Of a stretch of 64,000 nucleotides of DNA, positions 2,835 through 21,067 are shown one piece after another. Both the position numbers and the translations under genes were made by a program. The DNA comes from Chromohalobacter moromii (lineage in GTDB: Bacteria > Pseudomonadota > Gammaproteobacteria > Pseudomonadales > Halomonadaceae), in assembly GCF_023091865.1 (NCBI RefSeq), contig NZ_JAHXDI010000001.1, positions 186,001-250,000 on the forward strand, given 5' to 3'. Every line of letters begins with the position of its first letter. Position 1 is the first letter of the stretch. Below the pieces are notes generated by a model that had not been told where the DNA came from, ran no database searches, and saw only the letters and a program-made list of their open reading frames with translations.

Positions 2835-5120
2835 ATGGCGCTGGCACACGTTCTGGGTTATCCACGCATAGGCGCGAACCGTGAGTTGAAAAAGGCCGTC
2901 GAGGCCTACTGGAAAGGCGACATCGACCAGGCCACGCTAGAGCAACGCGGCAAGGCGCTGCGTGCCGCGCACTGGCAAGCCAGTCGCGATGCGGGGCTCG
3001 ATCTCGTCACCGTGGGCGATTTCGCTTTCTACGACCAGGTGCTCAATGTCAGCGCGTTGCTGGGAGCGGTGCCGCCGCGTTTCGGTACCGTCGAGGGCGA
3101 GGTCGATCTGGATACGACGTTCCGCATGGCGCGTGGCCGAGCGCCCACCGGCGAGACAGCGGCGGCTTGTGAGATGACCAAGTATTTCGACACCAACTAC
3201 CATTACCTGGTCCCCGAGCTGCATACCGATCAACGCTTCCGGGTGGCCTCCACGCGCTTGTTCGACGAAGTTGCCGAAGCCCAGGCCGAGGGGCACCCAG
3301 TCAAGGTAGCGTTGCTGGGCCCCATCAGTTGGTTGTGGCTGGCCAAGGAAAAAAGCGAAGGGCTCGACCGTCTGACGCTACTCGATGCGCTGTTGCCGGT
3401 GTATGGCGAGATACTCGAGCGTTTGGCGGCGCAGGGCGTCGAATGGGTGCAGCTCGACGAGCCGGCGTTGGTGCAGGACTTGCCCCGCGATTGGCGCCAG
3501 GCCTTTGAGGCCGCCTACAACAAGTTGCAATCCGTACGGGTCAAGCTGCTGGTGGCGACCTATTTCGGCGCTCTGGGTGACAACCTGGGCCTGGCCGCCG
3601 GCTTGCCGGTCGCCGGCCTGCATATCGATACGGTACGCGGGCCCGAACAGCTCGACGCCGTACTCGACCGTCTGCCTACCTATAAGGTGCTGTCCATCGG
3701 CGCCATCGATGGACGTAACATCTGGCGCACCGACTTGGCGGCACTGCGTGAGCGCTTGCAAGTCGCTCGTGCGCGTCTCGGTGAGCGCCTTTGGATCTCG
3801 GCCTCCTGCTCGCTGCTGCACGTACCGGTGGATCTCGAGGCGGAAACCGACCTCGACGCCGAACTCAAAAGTTGGTTGGCCTTCGCCCGTCAAAAGCTCG
3901 ACGAAATCGTCACCCTGGCGCACCTGCTCGATGGCCGTGCGACCCCGGACGATACTGCTCGTCTAGAGGCCGCTACACAGGCGCTGGAAGCACGCCGCAA
4001 CTCCCCGCGCATTCACAAGCCCGCCGTGGGCGAGCGTCTGGCGGGCACCACCGCCGCCGATGCCGAGCGCGCGAGCCCCTATGAGGGACGCGCCAAGGCA
4101 CAGCACCGTCACCTGGAACTGCCGCTGTTTCCGACCACCACCATCGGTTCGTTCCCGCAGACGCAGGCTATCCGGGGCGCACGCCGCGCCTTCAAGAACG
4201 GCGAGCTGAGCCGTGAGGCCTACGAGGCCCGCATGCGCGAGGAGATCGTTCACGCCGTCGAGCGCCAGGACGCCCTGGATATCGACGTGCCGGTCCACGG
4301 CGAGCCCGAGCGTAACGACATGGTCGAATACTTCGGCGAACTGCTGGATGGCTTTGCCTTCACGCGTTTTGGCTGGGTGCAAAGTTACGGCTCGCGCTGC
4401 GTGAAACCGCCGGTGATCTTCGGTGATGTGAGTCGCCCTGGCCCGATGACGGTGCGCTGGAGCGAGTACGCGCAATCGCTCACCGACAAGCCCATGAAGG
4501 GCATGCTCACCGGGCCAGTGACGATTCTGCAGTGGTCCTTCGTGCGCGATGACCAGCCGCGCGAGGCCACGTGCCGTCAGATTGCCTTGTCCTTGCGTGA
4601 CGAAGTCGCCGATCTCGAAGCGGCGGGTATCAAGATCATCCAGATCGACGAGCCGGCACTGCGCGAAGGTTTGCCGCTGCGGCAGGGCGAATGGCAGCGT
4701 TACCTCGATTGGGCGGTGGAGAGCTTCAAGTTGAGCGCGGCCGTCGCCCGTGACGAGACGCAGATCCACACGCATATGTGCTATTCGGAATTCAACGACA
4801 TCATCGCCGCTATCGCCGCACTGGATGCCGACGTGATCACCATCGAGACGTCGCGTTCGGACATGGAGCTGCTCGACGCCTTCCAGGACTTCGCCTACCC
4901 CAACGAGATCGGCCCGGGCGTGTACGACATCCACTCGCCCAACATTCCCGAGGTGGAGTGGATGGTGCAGTTGATGGAAAAAGCCGCCGAGAAGATTCCC
5001 GCCGAACGGCTTTGGGTCAACCCGGACTGTGGCCTGAAAACGCGTGGTTGGGCGGAAGTCGAACCGGCATTGGCCAATATGGTCGATGCGGCCAAGGCGT
5101 TGCGTCGCCGCCACGCTTAA
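2835..5120 (+). CDS. metE: Cobalamin-independent methionine synthase MetE
   Basis: This cytosolic enzyme of 761 residues transfers the methyl group of 5-methyltetrahydropteroyl-triglutamate to homocysteine, forming methionine. The length is normal and two homologous barrel domains are present. The zinc-site residues are visible in the C-terminal half: His-Thr-His-Met-Cys near residue 645, Glu in the IETSRSD stretch, and Cys in NPDCGLKTR. The ATG at 2835 follows an AGGGGA ribosome site. The gene is divergent from metR and ends in a strong terminator, so it is monocistronic. Activation by MetR is expected from the family and the site near 2792. Confidence 0.97.
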
Positions 5121-5284: not shown

Positions 5285-6073
5285 ATGTTCCCCAGAATGT
5301 CTCGGCGTGCGAAGCACGTCTTGTCGGGTGTGGTGTGCGTTGCCGTGTTGAGCGGTTGCGCGAGTGCCGAGAAGCCGCCACAGGTAAGCGACGCCTCGGG
5401 AGACGATTTCACCCCGCCGCCGCGTCTCGATAAGCCGGACGAGAGCGACGACACCCCCAAGTCGCCGCTGTTGCCGAGCGCCTTCTTTGCCGATGGTGCG
5501 GAAGCATTCGTGTCCTGGCGTTGCACACCGGCACAGGATCTCATCTCGGCCTCGCCCGGGGATAATCTGCGGTTATGGTCGGCTCAGGGGTACTACGCGC
5601 TCGAGCGAAGCGTGGTTACAGAGGGCAAACGCTACCGGAAAGGCACGCTGACGTTCGCTCAGCAGGGCGACGAGGCGCACGTCGAAAGCGATAACGGCCA
5701 GCTCGCCTGTCAGCAAGATGCTCGACGCGATGCGATCACGCGCGCCGACGCTCCGGATGCGATCTTCAAGGGGCAGGGCAATGAGCCCGGATGGACGCTC
5801 GAACTCGATCGCGAAACGCCGCAACTCACGCTGGTCACGCAATACGGTGAGCAAAAGCGTACGCTGAATTATCGGGTCACGCGGCTCGACAATGGCCACC
5901 AGGCTGCCATGACGCTCGAGGCTAGCGGCGCCGACGCACCGGTGACCGTCGAGCTCAAAGCGCGGGCTTGCTTCGACAGCATGAGCGGCAAGCCGTATCC
6001 CGTGCGAGTACGTGTCGAGGAGGCCGGTCGCACCTGGGTTGGCTGCGGGCAGGGCATCGAGCGAACGCGTTGA
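5285..6073 (+). CDS. Lipoprotein with MliC-like lysozyme-inhibitor domain and COG3650-like domain
   Basis: This predicted outer-membrane lipoprotein has 262 residues. A signal peptide ends in the lipobox Leu-Ser-Gly-Cys with the lipidated Cys near residue 25, followed by a low-complexity acidic and proline-rich linker. Residues of about 75-140 resemble the MliC/PliC fold of C-type lysozyme inhibitors, with Trp-Arg-Cys at the start and a second Cys about 65 residues later. Residues of about 150-260 contain Gly-Asn-Glu-Pro-Gly-Trp, typical of the COG3650 domain. Both domain calls come from motif memory. An AAGGAG site precedes the ATG. The gene stands alone, convergent with the RpiR regulator. 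Confidence 0.65.
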   Translation: MFPRMSRRAKHVLSGVVCVAVLSGCASAEKPPQVSDASGDDFTPPPRLDKPDESDDTPKSPLLPSAFFADGAEAFVSWRCTPAQDLISASPGDNLRLWSAQGYYALERSVVTEGKRYRKGTLTFAQQGDEAHVESDNGQLACQQDARRDAITRADAPDAIFKGQGNEPGWTLELDRETPQLTLVTQYGEQKRTLNYRVTRLDNGHQAAMTLEASGADAPVTVELKARACFDSMSGKPYPVRVRVEEAGRTWVGCGQGIERTR

Positions 6074-6129: not shown

Positions 6130-7008
6130 TCAGGTGAATTTGCGAAAGAAATGGGTCTTGTCGAACAACTCGTCCAACCGCTCATAGCGGTCTCTGGCGT
6201 CGGGCCAGCGTTGCTCCTGGACGGCGGCGATCAGGGTCTCCAGCAGCATCATGGTCGCCACGTTGGAATCCCATCCCGAGGGAATCTCCACCCAACAGTG
6301 AAAGGTCAAATCGGCGAGTGACGCGATGGGGGAGCCCCACTGATCGGTGAATAGCACGATTCGCGCATCGCGCTTTTGCACTATCTCTGCCAAGCGCAGC
6401 AGGTTGGTCTCATAGCGCCGGATGTCGAAGATCAGCAGGGTGTCCCCTGGTGCCATGTCGAGCACGTAATGCGGCCAGGTGCCCGATGACGACGTCATAT
6501 GGGTTACGCCGGGGCGCACCGCCTGGAAATGCGTGAAGGCATAGTCAGCCAGGGCCTGGGTGATGCGCCCACCGACAATGTAAAGGCGCTTCTCGGCATC
6601 GGCTAGTTGGTGGGTCGCTTCATCGAAGCGTTCGGTGTCGATATGGGCGAAGGTCTGTTGCAGGTTATTCGTGACCGCCTGAGAGAACCGGTTGAGAAGG
6701 TGCTTCTTGGGGGCCTCGGATGACCAGTTGTCGCGCCTCTTGGTGGGCCCGATCCCCTTTGCTTCCAGCTCGTGCAACAGCGCCTTGTGGAATTCCGGAT
6801 AGCCCTTGAATCCTAGTTTCTTGACCGTCCGCGCCACGGTGGGAGACGACACGCCCACGTTGCTCGCCACGATAGTGATCGAGGCGAGGCCCGCCGCGGG
6901 GTAGTTATCGAGCAGTGCATTGGCAAACTTGCGTTCCGCTTGCGTCAATGCCGAGTAGTGCTCTCGGATCAGCTCACGCACGGTCGAGGCGGCATTGGTG
7001 GTCGCCAT
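6130..7008 (-). CDS. RpiR/MurR-family transcriptional regulator with SIS domain
   Basis: The protein has 292 residues. An N-terminal RpiR-type HTH (about residues 5-80) contains the Ser-Pro-Thr-Val-Ala-Arg recognition stretch. A SIS domain follows (about 125-260), which usually binds a phosphosugar but in catabolic clusters can bind other effectors. An AGGAGG lies six bases before the ATG at 7008, so this start is preferred over GTG at 7011. The gene is divergent from the seven-gene TRAP/glutamylation operon and is its likely local regulator. A perfect TTTTCA-N7-TGAAAA dyad lies between them. The effector is unknown. Confidence 0.88.
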   Translation of the reverse strand: MATTNAASTVRELIREHYSALTQAERKFANALLDNYPAAGLASITIVASNVGVSSPTVARTVKKLGFKGYPEFHKALLHELEAKGIGPTKRRDNWSSEAPKKHLLNRFSQAVTNNLQQTFAHIDTERFDEATHQLADAEKRLYIVGGRITQALADYAFTHFQAVRPGVTHMTSSSGTWPHYVLDMAPGDTLLIFDIRRYETNLLRLAEIVQKRDARIVLFTDQWGSPIASLADLTFHCWVEIPSGWDSNVATMMLLETLIAAVQEQRWPDARDRYERLDELFDKTHFFRKFT

Positions 7009-7062
7009 CACACTGTCCTCCTGAGTAGGCTTCGCGCGGATGTTGATCGTGATATTTCAGTG

Positions 7063-7081
7063 TTTTCACGGTCTTTGAAAA
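7063..7081. promoter_or_regulatory. Candidate operator for the RpiR regulator
   Basis: A perfect inverted repeat TTTTCA-N7-TGAAAA lies in the divergent gap, five bases before the -35 box of the catabolic operon. TTTC/GAAA half-sites are common for RpiR-family regulators. Assignment to the adjacent regulator is an inference from position. Confidence 0.5.
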
Positions 7082-7085
7082 AATA

Positions 7086-7115
7086 TTGACACGTGGTCTT
7101 GGCGACGTCTATATC
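7086..7115 (+). promoter_or_regulatory. Sigma-70 type promoter of the catabolic operon
   Basis: A consensus TTGACA at 7086-7091 is followed after 18 bases by TATATC at 7110-7115. The first gene starts at 7138. The operator-like dyad at 7063-7081 abuts the -35 box on its upstream side. Confidence 0.6.
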
Positions 7116-7137
7116 TTTACAGAGTCGCGGAGAAATC

Positions 7138-7938
7138 ATGATGTCCAGCGAATTAGAACAATTATCCCCGAACGTCGAGATTCTCTATCGGTACGCCAAG
7201 GGCCCGGTTCTCCTGCTGTGCGAGCACGCGTCGTACCATATCCCCGAGCACTACCATGGGCTGGGGGTGGACCCCTCCCATCGGCGCAGTCACGCGGCAT
7301 GGGATCCTGGCGCACGCGATGTGGCCGTTGCGCTGTCGGAATTGCTCGATGCCCCACTGGTCGCGAGCCGTGTCTCGCGACTGGTCTATGACTGCAACCG
7401 TTCCCCCGAAGCGGCAAGCGCGATGCCGGAGCGTTCAGAGGTCGTCGAGGTGCCGGGTAATCGTGAGCTGACGTCAGCGCAGCGAGCCGCTCGAGTCGAG
7501 GCCGTCTACGATCCGTTTTGCAAGGCGGTAACACAGGTACTGGCACAGCGTACGGCGCACGATATTCCCACCGTATTGATCACGGTTCATAGCTTCACGC
7601 CGACCTTTCATGGTCGGGTGCGCGCGGTCGAGATCGGCATTCTGCATGATGCCGACCGCCGTCTGGCCGATGCGATGCTGGCGCACGCCCATCGCCTGCC
7701 TCATCGATGCATCCAGCGCAACGCGCCTTATGGACCGCAGGATGGCGTCACCCATTCGCTGGTGCGCCACGGTATCGACAATGGCCTGGCGAACGTGATG
7801 ATCGAGATTCGTAACGATTTGCTGGCCACTCTGGAAGACGCCCACGCCATGGCGCGGGAGTTGATGCAGCTTATCCAGCCGGCGCTGGCAGCTCTGGGGG
7901 TCGAGCTTACTCACAGGGAGGGTAAGCACGGTGCCTAG
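7138..7938 (+). CDS. N-formylglutamate amidohydrolase-family hydrolase
   Basis: This predicted zinc-dependent amidohydrolase has 266 residues and covers the family in full. Visible family motifs are Cys-Glu-His-Ala-Ser near residue 30, Thr-Val-His-Ser-Phe-Thr-Pro near 150, and Glu-Ile-Arg-Asn-Asp-Leu-Leu near 223. Classical members (HutG) cleave N-formylglutamate in histidine breakdown, but no hut gene is present here. The gene heads an operon with a TRAP transporter, a glutamine-synthetase-like ligase and two dehydrogenases, so removal of a gamma-glutamyl group is the more fitting role; that is an inference. GGAG lies five bases before ATG 7138. The 3' end overlaps the next gene by eight bases. 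Confidence 0.85.
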   Translation: MMSSELEQLSPNVEILYRYAKGPVLLLCEHASYHIPEHYHGLGVDPSHRRSHAAWDPGARDVAVALSELLDAPLVASRVSRLVYDCNRSPEAASAMPERSEVVEVPGNRELTSAQRAARVEAVYDPFCKAVTQVLAQRTAHDIPTVLITVHSFTPTFHGRVRAVEIGILHDADRRLADAMLAHAHRLPHRCIQRNAPYGPQDGVTHSLVRHGIDNGLANVMIEIRNDLLATLEDAHAMARELMQLIQPALAALGVELTHREGKHGA

Positions 7939-8527
7939 CGCTATTCTCGGCTACATCAGCGTGATCGATGCGATGAACCGGTTCATTGGGCGGATCGCGA
8001 TGTATCTGATCTTCGTGCTGATCGCGGTGCTGCTATGGTCCTCGTTCTCCAAAGTGTTTTTGACACCCACGATGTGGACGCTGGAGACCGCACAATTCGT
8101 CATGGTGGCGTATTTCGTGTTGGGTGGGCCCTACTCGATCCAAATGGGCTCGAACGTACGCATGGATCTCTTCTACGGCGACTGGAGCCCGAAGACGAAG
8201 GCGTGGGTCGACGCCTTCACGGTCTTTTTCCTGATCTTTTACCTCGGTGTCCTGCTTTATGGTGGGCTGGTATCGACGGCCTATTCTCTCGGCTACTTCG
8301 GCGATGAGCCCTTCCACTTCTTCCTCAACCTCGTCGTCACCTTCTTCACGGAAGGGCCCGAAGCGGCCGCTGACACGTTCGGTTTCCTGGAGCGTAGCCC
8401 GACGGCCTGGCGGCCCTGGCTGTGGCCCATCAAGGTCGTGCTTTGCCTCGGTGTGTTGCTGATGATCCTTCAATCTCTTGCCGAATTTTTCCGGGATATC
8501 GGCCGTCTGCGCGGGGTGCTCGACTGA
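7931..8527 (+). CDS. TRAP transporter small permease (DctQ family)
   Basis: This inner-membrane protein has 198 residues and four predicted membrane helices, the normal DctQ layout. It forms the small membrane subunit of a tripartite ATP-independent periplasmic transporter. The hydrophilic loop between the last two helices, near residues 125-155, is somewhat extended. It starts with GTG at 7931 inside the hydrolase gene, and its TGA at 8525-8527 overlaps the ATG of the large permease, indicating translational coupling. Confidence 0.9.
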   Translation: MPSAILGYISVIDAMNRFIGRIAMYLIFVLIAVLLWSSFSKVFLTPTMWTLETAQFVMVAYFVLGGPYSIQMGSNVRMDLFYGDWSPKTKAWVDAFTVFFLIFYLGVLLYGGLVSTAYSLGYFGDEPFHFFLNLVVTFFTEGPEAAADTFGFLERSPTAWRPWLWPIKVVLCLGVLLMILQSLAEFFRDIGRLRGVLD

Positions 8528-9849
8528 TGTCGTACGAGATGATCGCCATCGTGATGTTCAGCTCGATGATGCTGATGCTGCTCACTGGGCAGCGTGTTTT
8601 CGGCGCCATCGGCTTCGTCGGCGCCCTGGCAGGCGTCATGCTGTGGGGCACCGGTGGGGTGGACATCCCGTTCTCATCGGCGATGAAACTGATGAAATGG
8701 TATCCGTTGCTGACCCTGCCGATGTTCATCTTCATGGGGTACGTGCTGTCGGAAAGCCGTATCGCCGATGACCTCTACCGGATGTTTCATGTCTGGATGG
8801 GGCCGGTCAAAGGTGGCCTGGCCATTGGCACGATCGGCCTGATGGTGTTGATCTCGGCCATGAACGGGCTGTCGGTGGCCGGGATGGCGATCGGCGCCAC
8901 CATCGCCTTGCCCGAACTGCTCCGGCGCGGGTACGACAAGATCATGGTCACCGGCGTCATCCAAGCGGGATCCAGCCTCGGTATTCTGGTGCCGCCTTCG
9001 GTGGTGCTAGTGCTGTACGCCATGATTGCGCGCCAGCCGGTGGGACAATTGTGGCTAGCCGGCGTGCTGCCGGGGCTGATGATGGCGTTGCTGTTCGTCA
9101 TCTATATCTATGTTCGCTGCCGCCTTCAGCCCAGCTTGGGGCCCGTTCTTCCCGCCGAAGAGCGGAACGTGTCGCTGGCCGAGAAGCTGCGTCTGCTAAG
9201 GGCGGGGCTGCTGCCCCTGGTGATCTTTGCGGTGATGATGGTGCCTTTCGTCAAGGGTTGGACATCTTTGGTTGAAAGCTCCGCGGTCGGCGCGATGGCT
9301 GCGCTGCTGGCGGCTATCCTCAAGGGACGAATGACGCGCCAAGTCTTCGAGGTATCGGTGCGAAAGACACTGGCCATCTCCTGCATGTTCATGTGGATCA
9401 TCCTGGCAGCGCTGGCCTTCGGGGCCATATTCGACGGGCTCGGCGCGGTGAAGGCCATCGAGGGGCTGTTTACCGAGCGCCTGGGGCTCTCGCCCTGGAC
9501 GATTCTGATCCTCATGCAGCTCAGCTTCATCGTCATGGGCACCTTCCTCGACGATACCGCCATGCTGGTGATCGTGGCGCCGCTTTACGTGCCGTTGGTC
9601 GATGCGCTGGGGTTCGACCTGATCTGGTATGGCGTGCTCTACACGATCACCACGCAGATCGCCTACATGACGCCACCGTTCGGGTACAACCTGTTCCTGA
9701 TGCGTGCCATGGCGCCTCCGGAGATCGGGCTGCGTGACATTTATTTATCCATTCTCCCCTTCGTGGTGGTGATGATGGCAGCCCTGAGCCTGGTGATGGT
9801 CTTTCCACAGATCGCCCTCTGGCTTCCAGGCTACATTTATGGAAGTTGA
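8527..9849 (+). CDS. TRAP transporter large permease (DctM family)
   Basis: This integral membrane protein of 440 residues has about twelve hydrophobic segments. It carries the DctM-type stretches with Gly-Ser-Ser-Leu-Gly-Ile-Leu-Val-Pro-Pro-Ser near residue 150 and Thr-Pro-Pro-Phe-Gly near residue 383. It is the transport subunit that couples solute uptake to a sodium or proton gradient. The ATG at 8527 overlaps the small-permease stop by one base; the frame is open further upstream but only inside the preceding gene. The binding-protein gene follows after 98 bases. Confidence 0.93.
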   Translation: MSYEMIAIVMFSSMMLMLLTGQRVFGAIGFVGALAGVMLWGTGGVDIPFSSAMKLMKWYPLLTLPMFIFMGYVLSESRIADDLYRMFHVWMGPVKGGLAIGTIGLMVLISAMNGLSVAGMAIGATIALPELLRRGYDKIMVTGVIQAGSSLGILVPPSVVLVLYAMIARQPVGQLWLAGVLPGLMMALLFVIYIYVRCRLQPSLGPVLPAEERNVSLAEKLRLLRAGLLPLVIFAVMMVPFVKGWTSLVESSAVGAMAALLAAILKGRMTRQVFEVSVRKTLAISCMFMWIILAALAFGAIFDGLGAVKAIEGLFTERLGLSPWTILILMQLSFIVMGTFLDDTAMLVIVAPLYVPLVDALGFDLIWYGVLYTITTQIAYMTPPFGYNLFLMRAMAPPEIGLRDIYLSILPFVVVMMAALSLVMVFPQIALWLPGYIYGS

Positions 9850-9947
9850 CAAAAGCGTATAGGGAAATTGACAGCAGTGTGAACGAGCAACAATAGCCCT
9901 ACTCAGGGCCATGTCCATTCGATAGTGACACCAGGAGAGCTAGAACA

Positions 9948-11000
9948 ATGACAACAAGACGCAAATTTCTGATCAATGCCGCCGCCGGCGCTGCCATCAT
10001 GCCGCTGGCCTCGAGGGTCATGGCCCAGTCATCCTCCGAGCCGACCATCAAGTGGCGCATGCAGACCTATGCCGGGGCCGCCTTGGCCGAGCATGTGGCC
10101 AAGCCCGCCATCGACCTGTTTAACCGAATCGCCGGGGAGCGCATGCAGATCGAGCTGTACAGTGCCGATCAGTTGGTGCCGACCGGGGAACTGTTCCGGG
10201 CGATGCAGCGCGGCACCATCGACGCCGTGCAGTCGGATGACGATTCGATGGCGTCCCCCACCGAGGTGACCGTCTTTGGGGGGTACTTCCCCTTCGGGTG
10301 CCGATATAGCCTCGATGTGCCGGTACTGTTCAATCAGTACGGACTCAAGGAAATCTGGGAAGAGGAGTACGCCAAGGTCGGCGTCAAGCATGTGAGCGCC
10401 GGCGCCTGGGATCCGTGCCATTTCGCCACCAAGGAGCCGATTCGCAGCCTCAAGGACCTGGAAGGCAAGCGTGTCTTTACCTTCCCCACCGCAGGACGTT
10501 TTCTGTCCCGGTTCGGTGTCGTGCCGGTCACGCTCCCCTGGGAAGACATCGAAGTGGCCTTGCAGACCGGTGAGCTGGACGGGATCGCCTGGTCCGGCAT
10601 CACCGAGGACTACACGGTCGGTTGGGCCAACGTTACCAACTACTTTCTGACCAATAACATCTCGGGTGCCTGGATCGGCCATTTCTTCGTCAATATGGAG
10701 CGCTGGGAGGAACTGCCAGAGGATCTCAGGGTGCTGTTCGAGGTGTGCTGTGAACAGTCCCACTACCATCGCCAGTACTGGTACTGGGGCGGTGAGGCCA
10801 GGCTGCGCGTCCACGGCGACAAGCTGGAGCTGACGTCCATTCCCGACGCCGAGTGGGATCAGGTAGAAACGGCGGCCCAGGAGTTCTGGGATGAAATCGC
10901 GGCGCAATCCGAGACCAAGGCCAAGGTGGTCGATATCTTCAAGCAGTACAACGCCGATATGCGCAAGGCCGGTAGGCCCTATCGTTACGTCGATGCATGA
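9948..11000 (+). CDS. TRAP transporter substrate-binding protein (DctP family)
   Basis: This periplasmic solute receptor has 350 residues. The N terminus Thr-Thr-Arg-Arg-Lys-Phe-Leu followed by an alanine-rich hydrophobic stretch and Ala-Gln-Ser looks like a twin-arginine signal, cleaved near residue 27. The mature part covers a DctP/TAXI-type fold. The segment that in carboxylate-binding relatives carries the ligand-contacting Arg reads Gly-Lys-Arg-Val-Phe-Thr-Phe, so that Arg may be displaced; by-eye alignment only. From memory and unchecked, a structural-genomics study reported a Chromohalobacter TRAP receptor with bound ethanolamine, which would suit this operon. A GGAGAG ribosome site precedes the ATG. 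Confidence 0.9.
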   Translation: MTTRRKFLINAAAGAAIMPLASRVMAQSSSEPTIKWRMQTYAGAALAEHVAKPAIDLFNRIAGERMQIELYSADQLVPTGELFRAMQRGTIDAVQSDDDSMASPTEVTVFGGYFPFGCRYSLDVPVLFNQYGLKEIWEEEYAKVGVKHVSAGAWDPCHFATKEPIRSLKDLEGKRVFTFPTAGRFLSRFGVVPVTLPWEDIEVALQTGELDGIAWSGITEDYTVGWANVTNYFLTNNISGAWIGHFFVNMERWEELPEDLRVLFEVCCEQSHYHRQYWYWGGEARLRVHGDKLELTSIPDAEWDQVETAAQEFWDEIAAQSETKAKVVDIFKQYNADMRKAGRPYRYVDA

Positions 11001-11100
11001 GTCGGCTCCGTGCCCTGGCGCCTGCCGGGGCACGTCGCTTGAAAAGGGGGCGACCGAGCGTCGGACCTCGTCATGGTGATGGCTATTGGGAACCTCGGAA

Positions 11101-12462
11101 ATGACCAACACGCTGGCTTTGGATGACCTGAAGACTAGGGTCGAGAGCGGTGAGATCGACACGGTGCTCGTGTGCATCGTCGACATGCAGGGTCGCCTGA
11201 TGGGCAAGCGACTGCATGCGCGCCACTTCGTGGATGATGGCTGGGACGAGACTCACTGCTGTAACTATCTATTGGCCACGGATCTCGAGATGGCAACGCC
11301 CGGTGGCTATGCCAGCACCTCCTGGCAGGCGGGCTACGGCGACTACATCATGAAACCGGACCTGGCCACGCTGCGATCCGTGCCGTGGTTGGAGGGCACG
11401 GCCATGGTGCTGTGCGATCTGCTGGATCATCGCACGCACGCGGCGGTCCCTCATGCGCCGCGGGCCATCCTCAAGCGTCAGCTGGCGCGGCTGGAGGAGA
11501 TGGGGCTGGAGGCGATCATGGCCACCGAACTGGAGTTTTTCCTGTTCGAGAAAAGCCTCGACGACATTCGCAAGAGCGGGTTTCGCGACCTGCAGCCGAT
11601 TAGCGGATACAACGAGGACTACCACATCTTCCAGACTACCAAGGAAGAGCATGTGTTGCGTCCGCTGCGTAACTACCTCCAGGCGGCGGGCATCCCCGTG
11701 GAAGGCACCAAGGGCGAGGCCGGGGCGGGGCAGGAAGAACTCAACATCCGTTATGCGAAAGCACTCGATACGGCGGATTACCACACCATCGCCAAGCATG
11801 CGACCAAGGAGGTCGCCTGGCAGCAAGGCCGGGCGGTGACGTTCCTGTCGAAATGGCACCACGCGCATGCGGGCAGCTCCAGTCACATCCACCAGTCGCT
11901 GTGGAAGCAGGGGCAGTCAGTCTTCCATGATGAGCGCGATGCGCTGGGCATGTCGGCCTTGATGAAGCATTACCTGGCGGGATTGCTGAAATATGCGCCT
12001 GACTATACCTACTTCCTGGCTCCCTACCTCAATAGCTACAAGCGCTTCCAGAAGGGCACCTTCGCACCTACGCGCATGGTCTGGTCGGTGGATAATCGTA
12101 CCGCAGGGTTTCGCCTCTGCGCCGAAGGCACACGGGCGGTGCGCATCGAGTGTCGCATCGGCGGCTCGGACCTGAACCCCTATCTGGCCATGGCCGGCCA
12201 GTTGGCTGCCGGCATCAAGGGGATCGAGGAGTGCCTGGAATTGCCTGCTCCCGACGAGGGCGATACCTACGAAGGGGAAAGCGGCCTGATACCACAGAAT
12301 CTGCGCGATGCCATGGAGGCCCTGAAGGATTCCACCATGCTGCGCGAGGCCATGGGGGATGAGGTGGTCGACCATTATGTGCGTGCCGCCGAAGTGGAGC
12401 TCGAGGACTTCCAGCGGGTGGTGACCGACTATGAGGTGGCACGAGGTTTCGAGCGGTGTTGA
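11101..12462 (+). CDS. Glutamine-synthetase-like gamma-glutamylamide synthetase
   Basis: The protein has 453 residues and belongs to the GS superfamily (PuuA/IpuC/GlnA3-4 type). ATP/metal and glutamate-site motifs are present: Gly-Ala-Gly-Gln-Glu-Glu near residue 209, His-Ala-His-Ala-Gly-Ser-Ser-Ser-His-Ile-His near 257, and Asp-Asn-Arg-Thr-Ala-Gly near 330. Relatives ligate glutamate to an amine using ATP, forming a gamma-glutamylamide. The biosynthetic adenylylation-site region is not recognisable. ATG 11101 is chosen over TTG 11086. Its place between a transporter and two dehydrogenases points to catabolic amine activation. The amine is not determined by the sequence. Confidence 0.88.
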   Translation: MTNTLALDDLKTRVESGEIDTVLVCIVDMQGRLMGKRLHARHFVDDGWDETHCCNYLLATDLEMATPGGYASTSWQAGYGDYIMKPDLATLRSVPWLEGTAMVLCDLLDHRTHAAVPHAPRAILKRQLARLEEMGLEAIMATELEFFLFEKSLDDIRKSGFRDLQPISGYNEDYHIFQTTKEEHVLRPLRNYLQAAGIPVEGTKGEAGAGQEELNIRYAKALDTADYHTIAKHATKEVAWQQGRAVTFLSKWHHAHAGSSSHIHQSLWKQGQSVFHDERDALGMSALMKHYLAGLLKYAPDYTYFLAPYLNSYKRFQKGTFAPTRMVWSVDNRTAGFRLCAEGTRAVRIECRIGGSDLNPYLAMAGQLAAGIKGIEECLELPAPDEGDTYEGESGLIPQNLRDAMEALKDSTMLREAMGDEVVDHYVRAAEVELEDFQRVVTDYEVARGFERC

Positions 12463-12504
12463 GGTCAGGTCCGCAAAACGGTAAATGGCAAACGGGAGGG
12501 GATG

Positions 12505-13884
12505 ATGGGGCATATTCTGAGATGTATCTCGCCGATCGACGGGGCGGTCTTCGCCGAGCGTGAGGCGCTGTCGCCCGAGGCCGCGCGGCAGGCAGCGGAT
12601 CGGGCGCGTGCGGCCCAGGCCGACTGGGCCGCACGTCCTCTCCGGGAGCGTATCGATCTGGTGCGGGCCGGCATCGCCGCCGTGGGAGCGATGAATGACG
12701 AACTGGTGCCGGAGCTCGCGCGGATGATGGGGCGCCCGGTTCGTTACGGTGGCGAGTTCGGTGGCTTCGAAGAACGGGGAAGCCATATGGCGTCCATCGC
12801 CGAAGAGGCGCTGGCCGATATTGCGGTGGGCGAGGACGCCACCGTCAAACGCTACATCAAGCGCATTCCGCACGGGGTGGTGCTGGTGGTGGCCCCCTGG
12901 AACTACCCCTACATGACGGCCATCAACACGGTGGCGCCGGCGCTGATCGCAGGCAACAGCGTACTGTTGAAGCATGCCACCCAGACCCTGCTGGCAGGCG
13001 AGCGGATGGCGCGTGCCTTCCATTCGGTCGGCGTGCCCGAGGCGGTGTTCCAGAACGTCTTTCTGGATCACGCCACCACCTCGACGCTGCTTGCCGATAG
13101 CGCGTTCGATTTCGTCAATTTCACCGGCTCCGTGGGCGGCGGGCGTGCCATGGAACAGGCGGCGGCCGGTACTTTTACCGGGCTAGGGCTCGAGCTGGGC
13201 GGCAAGGATCCGGGCTATGTCATGGAGGATGCCGACCTCGATGCGGCGGTGGCGTCCCTGATCGACGGGGCGATGTTCAACTCGGGTCAATGCTGCTGCG
13301 GGATCGAACGCATCTATGTGCACGAGCGTCTCTATGAGGCCTTTGTCGACAAGGCGGTCGCGATCGTCGAGGGCTACAAGCTGGGCAATCCACTTGATGC
13401 CGAGACGGATATCGGCCCGATGGCGAATATCCGCTTCGCCAGGGAGGTCCGTGACCAGATCGAAGAGGCCTTGGCCGCCGGTGCGAGGGCTCATGTCATG
13501 CACAAGTCCGAAGATGACGGCGGTGCCTATCTGAGTCCGCAGATTCTTACCGAAGTGACGCATGACATGCGCGTGATGCGCGATGAAAGCTTCGGCCCGG
13601 TGGTCGGCATCATGAAGGTGAGTGGCGATGAAGAAGCCATCCGTCTGATGAATGACAGCCGGTTCGGACTGACCGCGAGCCTGTGGACGGCCGATATCGC
13701 ACGCGCCCAGCGCGTGGGAGACCGAATCGAGACCGGTACCGTCTTCATGAACCGCGCGGATTATCTGGATCCTGGCCTGTGCTGGACGGGCTGCAAGGAG
13801 TCCGGACGCGGTGGTGGCTTGTCGGTGATTGGCTATCACAACCTGACACGCCCCAAGTCCTACTATCTAAAAAAAACGACATAA
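12505..13884 (+). CDS. NAD(P)-dependent aldehyde dehydrogenase
   Basis: The protein has 459 residues and belongs to the ALDH superfamily. Catalytic residues are visible: Glu in Leu-Glu-Leu-Gly-Gly-Lys near residue 231 and Cys in Asn-Ser-Gly-Gln-Cys-Cys-Cys near 265. Ala-Pro-Trp-Asn-Tyr-Pro near residue 131 is the conserved oxyanion-hole region. The ATG at 12505 is five bases after GGGAGGG, better spaced than ATG 12502. In this operon it would oxidise the gamma-glutamyl aminoaldehyde made by the following alcohol dehydrogenase to the gamma-glutamyl amino acid; this is an inference. The run of three cysteines is unusual but tolerated in the family. Confidence 0.9.
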   Translation: MGHILRCISPIDGAVFAEREALSPEAARQAADRARAAQADWAARPLRERIDLVRAGIAAVGAMNDELVPELARMMGRPVRYGGEFGGFEERGSHMASIAEEALADIAVGEDATVKRYIKRIPHGVVLVVAPWNYPYMTAINTVAPALIAGNSVLLKHATQTLLAGERMARAFHSVGVPEAVFQNVFLDHATTSTLLADSAFDFVNFTGSVGGGRAMEQAAAGTFTGLGLELGGKDPGYVMEDADLDAAVASLIDGAMFNSGQCCCGIERIYVHERLYEAFVDKAVAIVEGYKLGNPLDAETDIGPMANIRFAREVRDQIEEALAAGARAHVMHKSEDDGGAYLSPQILTEVTHDMRVMRDESFGPVVGIMKVSGDEEAIRLMNDSRFGLTASLWTADIARAQRVGDRIETGTVFMNRADYLDPGLCWTGCKESGRGGGLSVIGYHNLTRPKSYYLKKTT

Positions 13885-13931
13885 CGAAAACGACATAAAG
13901 AAAACAATGACAGGCTAAAGAAGGTGACGAC

Positions 13932-15077
13932 ATGACATTGATCGGAAACTGGACATATCCCACCGCTATCCGCTTCGGGGCCGGGCGAGTCAAGGAATTG
14001 CCCGAGGCCTGTGCCGAGGCGGGCATCACCCGGCCGCTTCTGGTGACGGATCGCGGTCTGGCCGATCTGCCGATCACCGCTGCCGCGCTGGATATCCTGG
14101 AGGCTTCGGGACTGGGACGGGGGCTCTTCGCCGACGTCGATCCCAACCCCAACGAGCGCAACCTGTCGGCAGGCGTCGAGGCCTTTCGGACGGGGGGGCA
14201 TGACGGAGTGATCGCGTTCGGCGGTGGCTCGGGGCTGGATCTCGGCAAGATGGTGGCTTTCATGTCCGGCCAGACGCGTCCGGTATGGGACTTCGAGGAT
14301 ATCGACGACTGGTGGACGCGAGCCGATGCCGAGGCGATTGTCCCCATCGTGGCGGTGCCTACCACGGCCGGGACCGGCTCGGAGGTGGGGCGGGCTAGCG
14401 TCATTACCAACGCCAAGACCCACGAAAAGAAAATCATCTTCCACCCCAGAGTTTTGCCCCGGGTGGTGATCTGTGATCCCGAGTTGACGGTGGGCATGCC
14501 CAAGGCGATTACTGCCGGTACCGGGCTCGACGCCTTCGCCCACTGCGTGGAGGCCTTCTCGAGCCCACACTATCATCCGATGAGCCAAGGCATCGCGTTG
14601 GAAGGCATGCGACTGGTCAAGGAATATCTGCCGCGCGCCTATGCCGATGGCACCGATCTCGAGGCGCGTGCACACATGATGAGCGCCGCGATGATGGGAT
14701 CCACTGCCTTTCAGAAGGGGTTGGGGGCCATCCATGCGATGAGCCATCCCATTGGCGCGGTGTTCAATTCCCACCATGGCACCACCAATGCGATCTGCAT
14801 GCCGGCGGTACTGGCGTTCAACGCCGATAGCATCCGCGAACGCTTCGACATGGCGGCCGCCTATTTGGGGATCGCCGGCGGCTTCGACGGTTTCAGGGCT
14901 TTCGTGCAGGTGCTCAACGACCAGATGGGTATCCCGCGCACGCTCACCGAGATCGGCGCCGACCCGGAGCGCATCGACGACTTGGCCGCAATGGCCATTG
15001 CGGATCCTAGCTGTGGAGGCAATCCAGTGACCTTGACTGTCGAGGATCTCAAGGGGCTTTTCCGTCAGTGCATGTGA
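13932..15077 (+). CDS. Iron-containing alcohol dehydrogenase
   Basis: The protein has 381 residues and belongs to the group III (iron) ADH family. Metal ligands fit the family: Asp and His in Asp-Ala-Phe-Ala-His near residue 198, and two His residues 14 apart around residues 262-277. The Gly-Gly-Gly-Ser motif near residue 97 contacts NAD. It is the last gene of the operon, 47 bases after the aldehyde dehydrogenase, with a GAAGG ribosome site. The expected role is oxidation of a primary hydroxyl group, most plausibly of the gamma-glutamylated amino alcohol. No terminator was recognised in the 219-base gap that follows. Confidence 0.9.
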   Translation: MTLIGNWTYPTAIRFGAGRVKELPEACAEAGITRPLLVTDRGLADLPITAAALDILEASGLGRGLFADVDPNPNERNLSAGVEAFRTGGHDGVIAFGGGSGLDLGKMVAFMSGQTRPVWDFEDIDDWWTRADAEAIVPIVAVPTTAGTGSEVGRASVITNAKTHEKKIIFHPRVLPRVVICDPELTVGMPKAITAGTGLDAFAHCVEAFSSPHYHPMSQGIALEGMRLVKEYLPRAYADGTDLEARAHMMSAAMMGSTAFQKGLGAIHAMSHPIGAVFNSHHGTTNAICMPAVLAFNADSIRERFDMAAAYLGIAGGFDGFRAFVQVLNDQMGIPRTLTEIGADPERIDDLAAMAIADPSCGGNPVTLTVEDLKGLFRQCM

Positions 15078-15296: not shown

Positions 15297-15911
15297 ATGG
15301 CCGTTCGCAATATCTTGTTGGTGACCGCTTCCATCCTTGGTGAACATGGTCAGTCACGCGCGCTGGCGACGCATTTCAAAGCGCAGCTCGGCACGCGTGA
15401 CGATGTCCAACTCACCGAGCGTGATGTCGTGGCCCTCGACCTTCCGCATCTCGATGGCGAGGAGATGCGCAGTTGGATGACCGCTCCCGACGAGCGTGAT
15501 GCGGCCCAGCATGAGCTGGCGGAGCGTTCCGAGACGTTGATCGAGGAAGTGCTGGCGCATGATCTGATCGTGTTGGCGGTACCGCTTTACAACCTCGGCA
15601 TTCCGAGCCAGCTCAAGGCCTGGTTCGATCGTATCCTGCGGGCTGGCAGAACGTTCAAGTATACCGAAAGCGGCCCGGTGGGCCTTATCGAGGGGAAACG
15701 CGCACTGGTGCTCGCGGCACGCGGTGGTCAGTACGTCGGGACCGAGATAGATACTCAGACCGGCCACGTCAGCAGCCTGCTGGGATTGATCGGCATTCGC
15801 GACATCGACTGGATCTACGCGGAAGGTCTCAACATGGGCGAGGCGGTACGTGACCAGGCCATGGGTGAAGCGCGTCAAGCGGTGGCGAATTACACGGTGG
15901 AACGTCTCTGA
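15297..15911 (+). CDS. azoR: FMN-dependent NADH-azoreductase / quinone reductase AzoR
   Basis: This cytosolic flavodoxin-like flavoprotein has 204 residues, the normal AzoR length. Early residues fit the FMN phosphate loop (Thr-Ala-Ser-Ile-Leu-Gly-Glu-His-Gly-Gln-Ser), and Val-Pro-Leu-Tyr-Asn-Leu-Gly-Ile-Pro near residue 97 and Arg-Gly-Gly-Gln-Tyr near 141 are family signatures. Members reduce quinones, nitroaromatics and azo dyes with NADH and protect against thiol stress. An AAAGGA site precedes the ATG. The gene is monocistronic and bounded by a strong terminator. Confidence 0.92.
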   Translation: MAVRNILLVTASILGEHGQSRALATHFKAQLGTRDDVQLTERDVVALDLPHLDGEEMRSWMTAPDERDAAQHELAERSETLIEEVLAHDLIVLAVPLYNLGIPSQLKAWFDRILRAGRTFKYTESGPVGLIEGKRALVLAARGGQYVGTEIDTQTGHVSSLLGLIGIRDIDWIYAEGLNMGEAVRDQAMGEARQAVANYTVERL

Positions 15912-15939
15912 TCCCGATGCATGATAGTAGTGAAACAGC

Positions 15940-15972
15940 GAAGAAGGCGGCTCACGATGAGCCGCCTTCTTC
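15940..15972. terminator. Bidirectional Rho-independent terminator
   Basis: A perfect 15-base-pair stem (15940-15954 with 15958-15972) encloses a three-base loop. It lies between azoR and the convergent membrane-hydrolase gene that ends at 15976. Purine-rich and pyrimidine-rich flanks allow it to work in both directions. Confidence 0.9.
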
Positions 15973-15975
15973 GTG

Positions 15976-17049
15976 TCAGAGCGAGACGTCTGGCATGAGG
16001 CACTGCGTCTGACGCTCGTCCAGTGACAAGCAGGTATCGGCCTGCGGCACGAACACACGGCTAAATAGCGAGGCGAAAGCTTTCCTATTGGGGCGCGTGC
16101 CGTCGACACGTTCGCTGTCGATGGCGTGCCAACCATCGTTGCGGCGCTCGGCAAGGGTAAAGTTGAACATGTGATAACCGGGCGTGCCCAGACGCAGATC
16201 GGTTGCAATCAACTGGGTGGTGCCTTGGCGTTCCTCAGTGCGATAGCGCAGGAAGGGACCGGCGAACCATTGCAGGCGTTGCCCGGCCGCCGTGGCGAGT
16301 GCCGCGTCCTGCCATTCGCCACCTCGCGGCAGTTGGGTCAGTGCCAGCGGTGTCTGGCCGTCGAAGAGGCTCACGACGCCTTCGTAGTAGGCGTCGTCCT
16401 GGACCACCGTGACGCGCCACAGCAGGGTGTTGAACGGTGTCGGCTGAATCAGGCGCGGAGCCTCGTCGAGCCCTAGGCTGGCGAGACTCGCGGCGATGCG
16501 CGCGTTCACTGTGTTCTGCGCGGCGACGGCGAACGTCAGATAAAAACACGCGAGCGTCAGTCCCCAGCCCAGTAGGCGTGGCGAATAGCCCTTGATCAAG
16601 GCGGCGACCACGCCCACCAGCAACGGCAGCGTAAAAAGCGGGTCGATGATGAAAATGCTGTGCCAACTCACTGGCGGTGTCGTCAGCGGCCACCAGAGTT
16701 GAGTGCCATAGGTGGTAAAGGCGTCCAACAGAGGGTGCGTCAGCAGGCAGCCGCCGAATAGTAGCCCCCAACGCAGCGTGCCGATGGGCGGCGTGACGCG
16801 TCGCCAACGTTCGCCTGCTCGAGCCAGCCCGGTCAGTAGGACGGCGAGGGCGCCGAGTACCCACAGGGAATGGCTGAACCCCCGATGATAGGTGTAATCG
16901 GCCACGGCATCGCCATAGTCGATAATCACATCGAGATCGGGCAACGTGCCGAGCACGGCGCCGGCGATGACGGCCTTGCGACCTAGACGGCGACCCAGCA
17001 CGGTGCCGCCGATGGCGGCACCGAGGCAGGCCTGCGTCAGTGAGTCCAT
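15976..17049 (-). CDS. Inner-membrane metal-dependent hydrolase (YdjM / DUF457 family)
   Basis: The protein has 357 residues. The N-terminal half holds five or six membrane segments and family motifs: Ser-Leu-Thr-Gln-Ala near residue 3, Leu-Pro-Asp-Leu-Asp near residue 36, and Tyr-His-Arg-Gly-Phe-Ser-His-Ser near residue 54, whose Asp and His residues are thought to bind metal. The C-terminal 170 residues are soluble and lack a recognised domain. Relatives are called LexA-regulated, membrane-bound metal-dependent hydrolases, but no reaction is established. The gene stands alone. Confidence 0.8.
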   Translation of the reverse strand: MDSLTQACLGAAIGGTVLGRRLGRKAVIAGAVLGTLPDLDVIIDYGDAVADYTYHRGFSHSLWVLGALAVLLTGLARAGERWRRVTPPIGTLRWGLLFGGCLLTHPLLDAFTTYGTQLWWPLTTPPVSWHSIFIIDPLFTLPLLVGVVAALIKGYSPRLLGWGLTLACFYLTFAVAAQNTVNARIAASLASLGLDEAPRLIQPTPFNTLLWRVTVVQDDAYYEGVVSLFDGQTPLALTQLPRGGEWQDAALATAAGQRLQWFAGPFLRYRTEERQGTTQLIATDLRLGTPGYHMFNFTLAERRNDGWHAIDSERVDGTRPNRKAFASLFSRVFVPQADTCLSLDERQTQCLMPDVSL

Positions 17050-17092: not shown

Positions 17093-17632
17093 TCATTCTG
17101 TGTCCAGCCACGGTGGTCGTTGTGCGCGCACCTGGTGCTGGATCGGGCAGTCTTCGCGATGGGCGCCCGGCAGATAGCCGGTGCTCATCAAAAATTCGTT
17201 GACGATCTCCGGGCCGGTAAAGCGGAAGGTGCGTTTGAATAGCGTCACCCATTCCGACAACGCAAGCGGATGATGCGCGTCGAGCCAGTCGGCGAAACTG
17301 CCGTGAGACGCCTGCAAGGCGAGCACGACGTTGGCATTGTGAATCGCGGCATCGACCTTGCGCCGATTGCGGATGATACCTGCATCCGCGAGCAGACGCG
17401 CCCTTTGCGTATCGTCGTAGGCGGCGACGCGTGCCACGGCAAAGTCATCGAAGGCCGCCGAAAACGCTTCACGTTTCTTGAGCACCGTCAGCCATGAAAG
17501 GCCGGCTTGATTGATTTCCAGAATCAGACGCTCGAAGAGTTGATCGTCGTCGCGCACGGGAAATCCGTATTCGTGGTCGTGATAGGGGCCATGAAAGGGA
17601 TGGCCAGGGGCATGGTCGCAATACGTACTCAT
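17093..17632 (-). CDS. tag: DNA-3-methyladenine glycosylase I (Tag family)
   Basis: The protein has 179 residues, close to the usual length. The family features Tyr-His-Asp-His-Glu-Tyr-Gly near residue 18, Glu-Ile-Asn-Gln-Ala-Gly-Leu-Ser-Trp near 40, and a zinc-snap set (Cys and His near both ends, with His-Arg-Glu-Asp-Cys near 160) are present. Tag removes 3-methyladenine from alkylated DNA. The N terminus is divergent from E. coli Tag, with Cys-Asp-His in place of Cys-Gly-Trp, so a subfamily is likely. It starts at 17632 and faces a glyoxalase gene across a 116-base divergent gap. Confidence 0.85.
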   Translation of the reverse strand: MSTYCDHAPGHPFHGPYHDHEYGFPVRDDDQLFERLILEINQAGLSWLTVLKKREAFSAAFDDFAVARVAAYDDTQRARLLADAGIIRNRRKVDAAIHNANVVLALQASHGSFADWLDAHHPLALSEWVTLFKRTFRFTGPEIVNEFLMSTGYLPGAHREDCPIQHQVRAQRPPWLDTE

Positions 17633-17748
17633 GGGGAGTGTGCCTCGCGGAGTGTTGACGAATCGCCCTGCCGGTGATGAATTCGCCGTGACCGGCGGGC
17701 TGGTTTACCATAGACGTTTAGCCTGCATAACATCATGAGGAGCTTACC

Positions 17749-18189
17749 ATGCAGTACCTGCACACGATGGTCCGTGTCGCCGATCTCGACGCCTCGCTGC
17801 GTTTCTACTGTGACCTGCTGGGCCTCAAGGAAGTGCGGCGCAAGGAGAACGAAAAGGGCCGCTTCACACTGGTATTCCTCGCCGCGCCGGATGACGAGGA
17901 ACGTTCGCGCGAGCAAAAGGCGCCAGAAGTCGAACTCACCTACAACTGGGACCCGGAGACTTATACCGGCGGCCGCAACTTTGGCCACCTGGCGTATCGT
18001 GTCGACGATCTCTACGCCTTGTGCCAGCACCTGATGGACAACGGCGTGACCATCAATCGCCCGCCGCGCGACGGCCACATGGCGTTCGTCCGTTCGCCGG
18101 ACGGCATTTCCGTGGAGTTGTTGCAAAAGGGCGATGCGTTGCCTGCTCAGGAGCCGTGGGCGTCGATGGAAAATACCGGCAGCTGGTAA
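17749..18189 (+). CDS. gloA: Lactoylglutathione lyase (glyoxalase I)
   Basis: This single VOC-fold glyoxalase has 146 residues. Metal ligands typical of GloA are present: His near residue 5, Glu within Val-Glu-Leu-Thr-Tyr-Asn near 63, His in Phe-Gly-His-Leu-Ala near 85, and Glu in Ile-Ser-Val-Glu-Leu near 123. It isomerises the methylglyoxal-glutathione hemithioacetal to S-lactoylglutathione. The length and sequence fit the nickel-type bacterial group. A GAGG site lies just before the start. The next gene begins 91 bases later. Confidence 0.92.
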
Positions 18190-18280
18190 GTCACCCAATG
18201 TCGCGTCCCTTTCTGCGATGAACGGGGCGCGACAATCGTTGAAGGCTGAACGACCTCTTGAGCTGGAAAGGATGCCAAGC

Positions 18281-18970
18281 ATGTCACAAGACGTGACCCT
18301 CCCCTCGGCGTTACGCGATGCATTTCGCCGTGAAGCCGAGACGCTCGACGGCATCGACCGCGATGTCTATCTCGCCAATCGACGTGATCCGCTGGAGCCG
18401 ATCATCGGCTTGGGCCCACGCAACGCGCCGGTGGGCTTTTTCGGACGCGATCCCGGCCGTCAGGAGGTCGTGCATGGCGCGCCCTTCGTGGGCAGCGGCG
18501 GTCAGAAGGTGCGTGCCGGGCTATATGAGCATCTGCACGGGAAGACGTTGCCCGATTTCGAAGCCTCACTCGCCGTGGGGCAGCGTTATTTTTGGGCCAA
18601 TACCGTGCCCTACAAGCCGGTCGGCAACAAGGCATGGTCGATGGCGGTCAAGAAGCGCTTTCAGCCCTTGATGGCGGAGCTTTTGATCGATCACTGGCAG
18701 GGCCGGACGTTGATCACGCTGGGGCGTGAGGCCTTCCTGTGGTTTGCCATCGGGCAACCACGCGAGATCAAGCGTGAACTGGAGGCGTTCTGGGCTCGCG
18801 AGGATCGCTTCGAGGCGCTGCATACCACTATATTGTCGCTCCCCGACGGACGTAGTGCCGAGTTCCAACTGGCGCCGCTGCCGCACCCTTCCCCCCTCAA
18901 CCAAACGTGGTACAAGCGCTTTCCGGCCTTGCTGGATGTGCGCCTCGCGGCCTTGGGACGCGCCCACTGA
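18281..18970 (+). CDS. Uracil-DNA glycosylase superfamily protein
   Basis: The protein has 229 residues. Two superfamily motifs are visible: Phe-Phe-Gly-Arg-Asp-Pro-Gly near residue 48 (water-activating loop) and Pro-His-Pro-Ser-Pro-Leu-Asn near residue 204 (minor-groove loop). Gly-Ala-Pro-Phe-Val-Gly-Ser-Gly-Gly follows the first motif, as in family 4 enzymes, but the four iron-sulphur cysteines of family 4 are not evident. ATG 18281 is well spaced after GGAAAGG. The substrate base is not known; deaminated bases are the family's usual targets. Confidence 0.72.
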   Translation: MSQDVTLPSALRDAFRREAETLDGIDRDVYLANRRDPLEPIIGLGPRNAPVGFFGRDPGRQEVVHGAPFVGSGGQKVRAGLYEHLHGKTLPDFEASLAVGQRYFWANTVPYKPVGNKAWSMAVKKRFQPLMAELLIDHWQGRTLITLGREAFLWFAIGQPREIKRELEAFWAREDRFEALHTTILSLPDGRSAEFQLAPLPHPSPLNQTWYKRFPALLDVRLAALGRAH

Positions 18971-20826: not shown

Positions 20827-21067
20827 CATGTCCGGACATACCATGTAGACATCGTTTCATCTAATACGGATACCCTAGCGCAACGAAGCGACAACATGGC
20901 ATTTTGCTTATTTGGCGTTTGACGAATTTCATGCTGCAAAGCGGCTAAATTCACACACGAACCGTCCTTTTGATGCGCTGAATATGGCTAACCTTGCTAG
21001 GGAATCGATGCAGGGGAAGGCCCGTCGCATGACGTGGCCTAACGCAATGAAAAGGGATTCGCTCATC

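Follow-up and report, generated by a model that had tools for sequence, protein, structure and literature searches.

Here we analyzed an operon of Chromohalobacter moromii which lies in a window of 64,000 nucleotides, the whole stretch of DNA under analysis (assembly GCF_023091865.1, contig NZ_JAHXDI010000001.1, positions 186,001 to 250,000), from a genome of 3.47 Mb in six contigs. Together with its regulator the operon spans window positions 6130-15077, with one divergent gene and seven co-directional plus-strand genes (7138-15077), and it is very probably a substrate-inducible operon for the catabolism of ethanolamine, from uptake to glycine, via gamma-glutamyl intermediates. In the proposed scheme a tripartite ATP-independent periplasmic (TRAP) transporter with an ethanolamine-specialised binding protein would import ethanolamine, which a glutamine synthetase (GS)-like ligase would join with glutamate, using ATP, to give gamma-glutamylethanolamide. 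An iron-containing alcohol dehydrogenase (Fe-ADH) and then an aldehyde dehydrogenase (ALDH) would convert the hydroxyl into a carboxylate, giving gamma-glutamylglycine with no free amino-aldehyde on the way, and an FGase-type hydrolase would release glycine and return the glutamate. Repression of the operon probably falls to the divergent RpiR-family regulator, acting at sites that overlap the promoter. The four catalytic steps are assigned by analogy with published work on relatives, and induction would be expected from what is reported in Phaeobacter. Both the operon and the pathway have been described before in close relatives.

The genes of the operon are arranged in the following manner.

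6130-7008, minus strand: RpiR-family transcriptional regulator, divergent from the operon (Pfam HTH_6 57 bits, SIS 76 bits)
7138-7938, plus strand: FGase-family hydrolase, proposed gamma-glutamylglycine amidohydrolase (PF05013 139 bits; PDB 2odf, Atu2144, 256 bits)
7931-8527, plus strand: TRAP small permease DctQ, EtoV-like (PF04290 55.3 bits)
8527-9849, plus strand: TRAP large permease DctM, EtoW-like (PF06808 214.7 bits; start ATG)
9948-11000, plus strand: TRAP ethanolamine-binding protein DctP, orthologue of EtoX/Csal_0678 (DctP 75.6 bits; 4uab 757 bits over 325 residues; Glu220; Phe177 in place of Arg)
11101-12462, plus strand: GS-like ligase, proposed gamma-glutamylethanolamide synthetase (Gln-synt_C PF00120 323.3 bits; 5dm3 990 bits)
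12502-13884, plus strand: ALDH, proposed gamma-glutamyl-aminoacetaldehyde dehydrogenase (Aldedh PF00171 380.9 bits)
13932-15077, plus strand: Fe-ADH, proposed gamma-glutamylethanolamide dehydrogenase (PF00465 160.6 bits; C-terminal domain PF25137 147.5 bits)

All the named families were above the Pfam cut-offs in a profile scan of the window proteins. The ATG at 7138 was chosen as the start of the FGase gene, its mechanical open reading frame (ORF) starting at 7093, and the start of DctM was set at the ATG at 8527, its Pfam scan having been run from 8422. The first 8 bases of DctQ lie within the FGase gene, DctQ abuts DctM, and the remaining gaps are of 39-100 bases. An earlier sequence-only reading of this DNA had joined the TRAP, GS-like, Fe-ADH, ALDH and FGase-like families in one operon, which is borne out by these scores and by synteny in 47 of 80 loci; it did not name the divergent RpiR gene, which is a member of the unit, and its start at 7063 falls in the promoter region and not at a gene.

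The substrate is indicated by the binding protein. Against PDB 4uab/4xf5 it scored 757 bits with ~99% identity, or about four differences, and the next PDB sequence scored 85 bits. The entry 4UAB is Csal_0678 of Chromohalobacter salexigens with bound ethanolamine, solved at 1.40 Å, in which Glu220 coordinates both the amine and the hydroxyl of the ligand (PMC12410723, excerpt). The window protein was aligned with 65 relatives from the same operon type, six from a parallel operon described below (type 2) and 18 ordinary TRAP binding proteins; the alignment excluded the window itself (L004, L006, L124) and loci L012-L017, whose genes are those of L116-L121, and among the 65 relatives two genomes are counted twice (L010/L122 and L011/L123). 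Residue 220 is Glu in the window protein, in 65/65 relatives and in 6/6 type-2 proteins, and in none of the 18 ordinary ones. At position 177 all 18 ordinary proteins have Arg and the window protein has Phe, as have 58 of the relatives (the other 7 have Tyr) and 6/6 type-2 proteins, so that Phe or Tyr stands there in 71/71. The protein therefore belongs to the wider DctP family and lacks the Arg at 177 of its carboxylate-binding subgroup. Csal_0678 is likewise described as lacking the carboxylate Arg and its ligand as atypical, TRAP transporters usually carrying carboxylates (PMC4646407), and ethanolamine is called a surprising TRAP ligand owing to its positive charge (PMC5812351). Judged from these residues, it is a TRAP binding protein specialised for ethanolamine, binding being reported for the ~99% identical protein.

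The sequence-only reading had put forward ethanolamine as the probable substrate, and this agrees with the near identity to 4UAB, with Glu220, with the missing carboxylate Arg and with the published operon type; the outcome which it had named as refuting, a binding protein restricted to carboxylates, runs counter to the ethanolamine complex reported for 4UAB. It is improbable that ethanolamine is one of several natural substrates of an operon serving short amino alcohols more widely (alaninol, serinol, 1-amino-2-propanol). The substrate ranges of the enzymes leave room for this, and for CqsR, an ethanolamine receptor unrelated to this protein, crystals with serinol and alaninol are reported (PMC12410723, excerpt), but the close relative of the binding protein was solved with ethanolamine, and the EtoX protein of Phaeobacter rejects the larger analogues tested, none of them an amino alcohol of this size (PMC10132767, excerpt).

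Ethanolamine would then be handed to the ligase, which scored 990 bits against PDB 5dm3 and 557 bits against 11zs, the other PDB sequences listed reaching at most 174 bits; 5DM3 is, we assume, Csal_0679. The Puu pathway of putrescine follows the same logic of gamma-glutamylation, oxidation and hydrolysis, and a Puu-like route for putrescine or another amine could be proposed from this likeness and from the 200 bits of the ligase to the gamma-glutamylputrescine synthetase model. This annotation was rejected, the cut-off of the model being 650; moreover, a diamine would call for no alcohol dehydrogenase, the binding protein is of the ethanolamine type, and the window has an FGase where Puu has a class-I amidotransferase-like hydrolase, so we regard such a pathway as highly unlikely. 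Scarcely any weight can be given either to an ordinary ammonia-using GS whose neighbours, a carboxylate TRAP transporter and dehydrogenases, have nothing to do with it. The ligase does score 248 bits to the GlnA model (TIGR00653, cut-off 429.15) and 240.7 bits to the type III GS model (TIGR03105, cut-off 469.6), and carboxylates are the usual TRAP cargo (PMC4646407, excerpt), but neither cut-off is reached and both annotations were rejected. The genome of the window has five GS-family genes, of which the best GlnA candidate is another one, on contig 3 (PF00120 472 against 324 bits); in addition the carboxylate-binding Arg is missing and the eight genes travel together. C. salexigens also has five annotated GS-family genes, Csal0679 included (PMC5299690, excerpt).

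The two dehydrogenases retain strictly conserved positions: C264-C266 and E231 of the ALDH are invariant in 66/66 aligned sequences, and D200, H204, H268 and H282 of the Fe-ADH in 68/68. Going by their families, the former would be catalytic residues and the latter metal ligands. The ethanolamine ammonia-lyase (Eut) pathway uses the same substrate through acetaldehyde, in place of the gamma-glutamyl intermediates here. It was considered as the alternative route and rejected: EutB gave no match at E <= 0.001 in the genome of the window, and the control search detected EutB in E. coli. The independence from ethanolamine ammonia-lyase which the sequence-only reading had supposed is in keeping with this result and with the published operon type.

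The window operon is the C. salexigens Csal_0678 operon in a sister species. Apart from the binding protein, the ligase is nearly identical to 5DM3, and the enzymes are of the same four families, tabulated for C. salexigens as PF00120, PF00465, PF00171 and PF05013 (PMC9397018 Table 2, excerpt); there are a few amino-acid changes and nothing of substance differs. In Phaeobacter MED193, a member of another class of bacteria, the reported order is RpiR, gamma-glutamylglycine amidohydrolase, EtoV, EtoW, EtoX, ethanolamine gamma-glutamylase, gamma-glutamylacetaldehyde-amide dehydrogenase and gamma-glutamylethanolamide dehydrogenase, five proteins of the operon are raised on phosphorylethanolamine, and the Kd of EtoX for ethanolamine is 7.9 uM (PMC10132767, excerpt). 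The window operon matches these eight genes role for role and in their order, the divergent RpiR included, and related Rhodobacteraceae loci (not MED193 itself) show 38-89% identity by gene. The GlnA4 cluster of Streptomyces coelicolor resembles the scheme in having gamma-glutamylation of ethanolamine first, by the gamma-glutamylethanolamide synthetase GlnA4, then two oxidations and hydrolysis; it differs in having a short-chain dehydrogenase in place of the Fe-ADH and a glutamine amidotransferase gene, orf5, and its figure legend names no TRAP transporter (PMC6529630, excerpt). The order of steps proposed in the sequence-only reading, from uptake through gamma-glutamylation, aldehyde and acid to glutamate plus glycine, agrees with PMC10132767, PMC6529630 and PMC9397018. 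That reading arrived at a pathway that is real and published, together with its substrate; it had supposed that part of this may have been proposed before, and the prior proposal does exist but covers the whole pathway. A common phospholipid head group would be used by the operon with no need for ethanolamine ammonia-lyase, and operons of this kind have already been recognised in salt-loving and marine bacteria.

For the comparison across genomes the best 80 of 561 ligase relatives were taken as loci, a sample that favours close relatives; by record titles most of them belong to Halomonadaceae and Alphaproteobacteria. All eight genes were present in 47/80 loci, with identical order and orientation in 47/47, and a cluster kept in this way is therefore not due to chance. 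Gene content was tabulated for the 61 loci having at least 5.2 kb upstream and at least 3.5 kb downstream of the ligase, the remaining 19 of the 80 being too short. Among these 61, all eight genes were found in 45, FGase-GS-ALDH-FeADH in 6, GS-FeADH in 4 and GS-ALDH-FeADH in 2, and there was one locus each with RpiR-FGase-GS-ALDH-FeADH, without ALDH only, without Fe-ADH only and with GS alone. Over nine genes, protein identity of the window to Chromohalobacter canadensis (L036) and C. israelensis (L037) is 85-100%, which marks the two as close relatives. An FMN-reductase-like gene at 15297-15911 was considered as a further member and rejected, since among the 80 loci it lies near the ligase only in these two, both Chromohalobacter.

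Several observations weigh against the ethanolamine pathway as drawn here. The enzyme-activity evidence, from GlnA4, comes from a Streptomyces enzyme and not from this enzyme set. PMC10132767 and PMC6529630 differ on the C. salexigens pathway, which is demonstrated according to the former, crediting earlier work on C. salexigens and Agrobacterium tumefaciens C58 and citing Vetting et al. 2015, and predicted in silico according to the latter. The binding protein was found at >=65% identity in 12/58 genomes (its own and 57 relatives), the other matches listed being of at most 30%, and in 4/10 genomes of Chromohalobacter. Lastly, ligase/Fe-ADH pairs without a close ALDH are unexplained by the scheme. 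In L046, L079, L091, L109 and L114 the Fe-ADH comes directly after the ligase with no ALDH beside it, and L053 has the rest of the operon without ALDH. At E 1e-90 no ALDH was found in 8/8 genomes without one beside the ligase (these six with L099 and L063), several of which are bins and may be incomplete. The L063 locus has a distant ALDH only, of 28% identity in one comparison and 31% in another; in four of the eight genomes, two had no match at 1e-60 and two only a relative of 32%. The control genomes G000, G455 and G456 gave orthologues at E 1e-256 or better.

A parallel operon, type 2, was found in six genomes of the same family as the window (L116-L121). Against the window genes, identity in 6/6 was 66-73% for the binding protein, 74-77% for DctM, 52-54% for ALDH and 51-53% for Fe-ADH, and only 33-35% for the ligase; the binding proteins have Glu220 and Phe177. 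Homology comparison with the window FGase gave no match in these loci, whereas 6/6 (by Pfam in four loci each) carry a regulator of the LysR family and a homologue of class-I glutamine amidotransferases. The presence of an unrelated hydrolase family in the place of FGase in type 2 is consistent with the gamma-glutamyl bond being the target of both, and counts in favour of the proposed scheme. The type-2 operon may be related to the Streptomyces cluster with the glutamine amidotransferase gene, and a limited literature search returned no apparent description of it.

The regulator was analyzed through the intergenic region between it and the FGase gene, the RpiR gene lying upstream of the FGase gene and pointing away from it in 47/47 loci holding all eight genes. 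The candidate sites are as follows.

7076-7091, plus strand: TGAAAAAATATTGACA, probable RpiR operator, ending in the would-be -35 box TTGACA (7086-7091)
7110-7115, plus strand: possible -10 box TATATC, at an 18-base spacer from the -35-like TTGACA
7106-7121, plus strand: degenerate second operator copy

These regions have a common pattern, TGWAAN6TKACA, which was counted in 55 regulator/FGase intergenic regions (54 loci and the window) against 50 shuffles; it had been drawn by eye from the very regions counted, which makes the enrichment partly circular. With at most one mismatch the pattern was present in 48/55 regions (shuffle mean 2.5, largest 6), and exactly in 19/55 (0.12 in shuffles). 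Two plus-strand copies with at most one mismatch were present in 19/55 regions (0.02 in shuffles), 10 of the pairs being 29-30 bases apart, and some relatives, e.g. L092 and L111, have a near-perfect palindrome TGTAATAAACATTACA. In the window the exact pattern occurs only at 7076-7091, and with up to two mismatches allowed this 16-mer is found once in the genome. The site is predicted as the probable RpiR operator, through which the regulator would repress the operon, though conservation of the pattern may partly reflect the promoter itself; a simple promoter scan of the window did not return the proposed promoter at 7086-7115. A limited literature search found no apparent description of such an RpiR operator, and the prediction makes RpiR control directly testable.

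The part most worth following is the variants without this TRAP transporter, which were 14 of the 61 eligible loci. A gene of the inositol-monophosphatase family (IMPase) lies upstream in 4/14 of them (L043, L044, L048, L061), with a homologue in 0/47 TRAP loci (Fisher p 0.0019, a value too favourable as the loci are related by descent); an earlier test on 9 hand-picked TRAP-less loci had given p 0.0003 and was redone on all 14. A Na/Pi-PhoU carrier is present in 3/14 TRAP-less loci and in 1/47 TRAP loci (Fisher p 0.035, again too favourable given the kinship), the latter being L078, where it lies inside the TRAP operon. The IMPase and carrier genes were assigned by Pfam in L043 and L061 and by homology in the other loci. 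In L043, L048 and L061 the IMPase, Na/Pi-PhoU and DeoR genes accompany FGase-GS-ALDH-FeADH; in L044 the IMPase gene precedes GS, and in L095 a PhnD-type (phosphonate-binding-protein) ABC transporter and a HAD hydrolase precede GS-ALDH-FeADH. In L166 a Na/Pi-PhoU carrier is transcribed divergently to the genes for GS, ALDH and Fe-ADH (identities of 58, 55 and 60%), and nearby ABC genes are homologous to the carrier-side set of L157, with SBP_bac_6, an ABC ATPase and a large permease; this set is reminiscent of the aminoethylphosphonate transporter AepXVW. A DeoR regulator is present in L069 and L075, together with, beyond the ethanolamine module, a choline/ethanolamine-kinase-family gene (PF01633) at 15407-16291 (by Pfam in L069, by homology in L075), which in L069 adjoins a dimethylglycine/sarcosine-dehydrogenase-like gene (DAO and GCV_T). 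The window operon has the TRAP genes and none of the phosphatase, Na/Pi-PhoU or phosphonate-ABC extras.

From these neighbours it is conceivable, at somewhat less than even credence, that in the TRAP-less relatives phosphoethanolamine, or a similar phosphorylated head group, feeds the module. The phosphate ester would enter by an ABC importer of the phosphonate type or by some other carrier, an IMPase- or HAD-family phosphatase inside the cell would free the ethanolamine, the Na/Pi-PhoU carrier would handle the released phosphate and a DeoR-type sensor would regulate the set. Further Pho-independent routes are reported to exist (PMC10132767, excerpt), and a limited literature search showed no apparent description of a phosphatase or carrier link to the ethanolamine gamma-glutamyl module. 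Against phosphoethanolamine feeding, most Na/Pi-PhoU loci lack such neighbours: the carrier was found at E 1e-70 in 77/398 genomes of the phylum, only L146 (extended as L166) among the 30 carrier loci retrieved adjoins this type of ligase, and the nine best loci (L157-L165, ~2-9 kb on each side) showed no ligase, FGase or Fe-ADH and one ALDH of 28% only, so the carrier alone says little. In addition, L107 has another DctP-family protein nearby and none of these extras was seen there, and L095 shows no FGase. If true, the phosphatase-linked variants would supply a further route, inside the cell, from phosphoethanolamine to glycine, relevant to marine nitrogen and phosphorus cycling.

Elsewhere in the window, two ORFs, of 262 amino acids (5285-6073) and 241 amino acids (17629-18354), gave no Pfam match at E 0.001. 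A cobalamin-independent methionine synthase lies at 2835-5120 with an adjoining divergent LysR regulator at 1757-2722, and a tandem pair of GGDEF (diguanylate cyclase) genes at 19732-22249.

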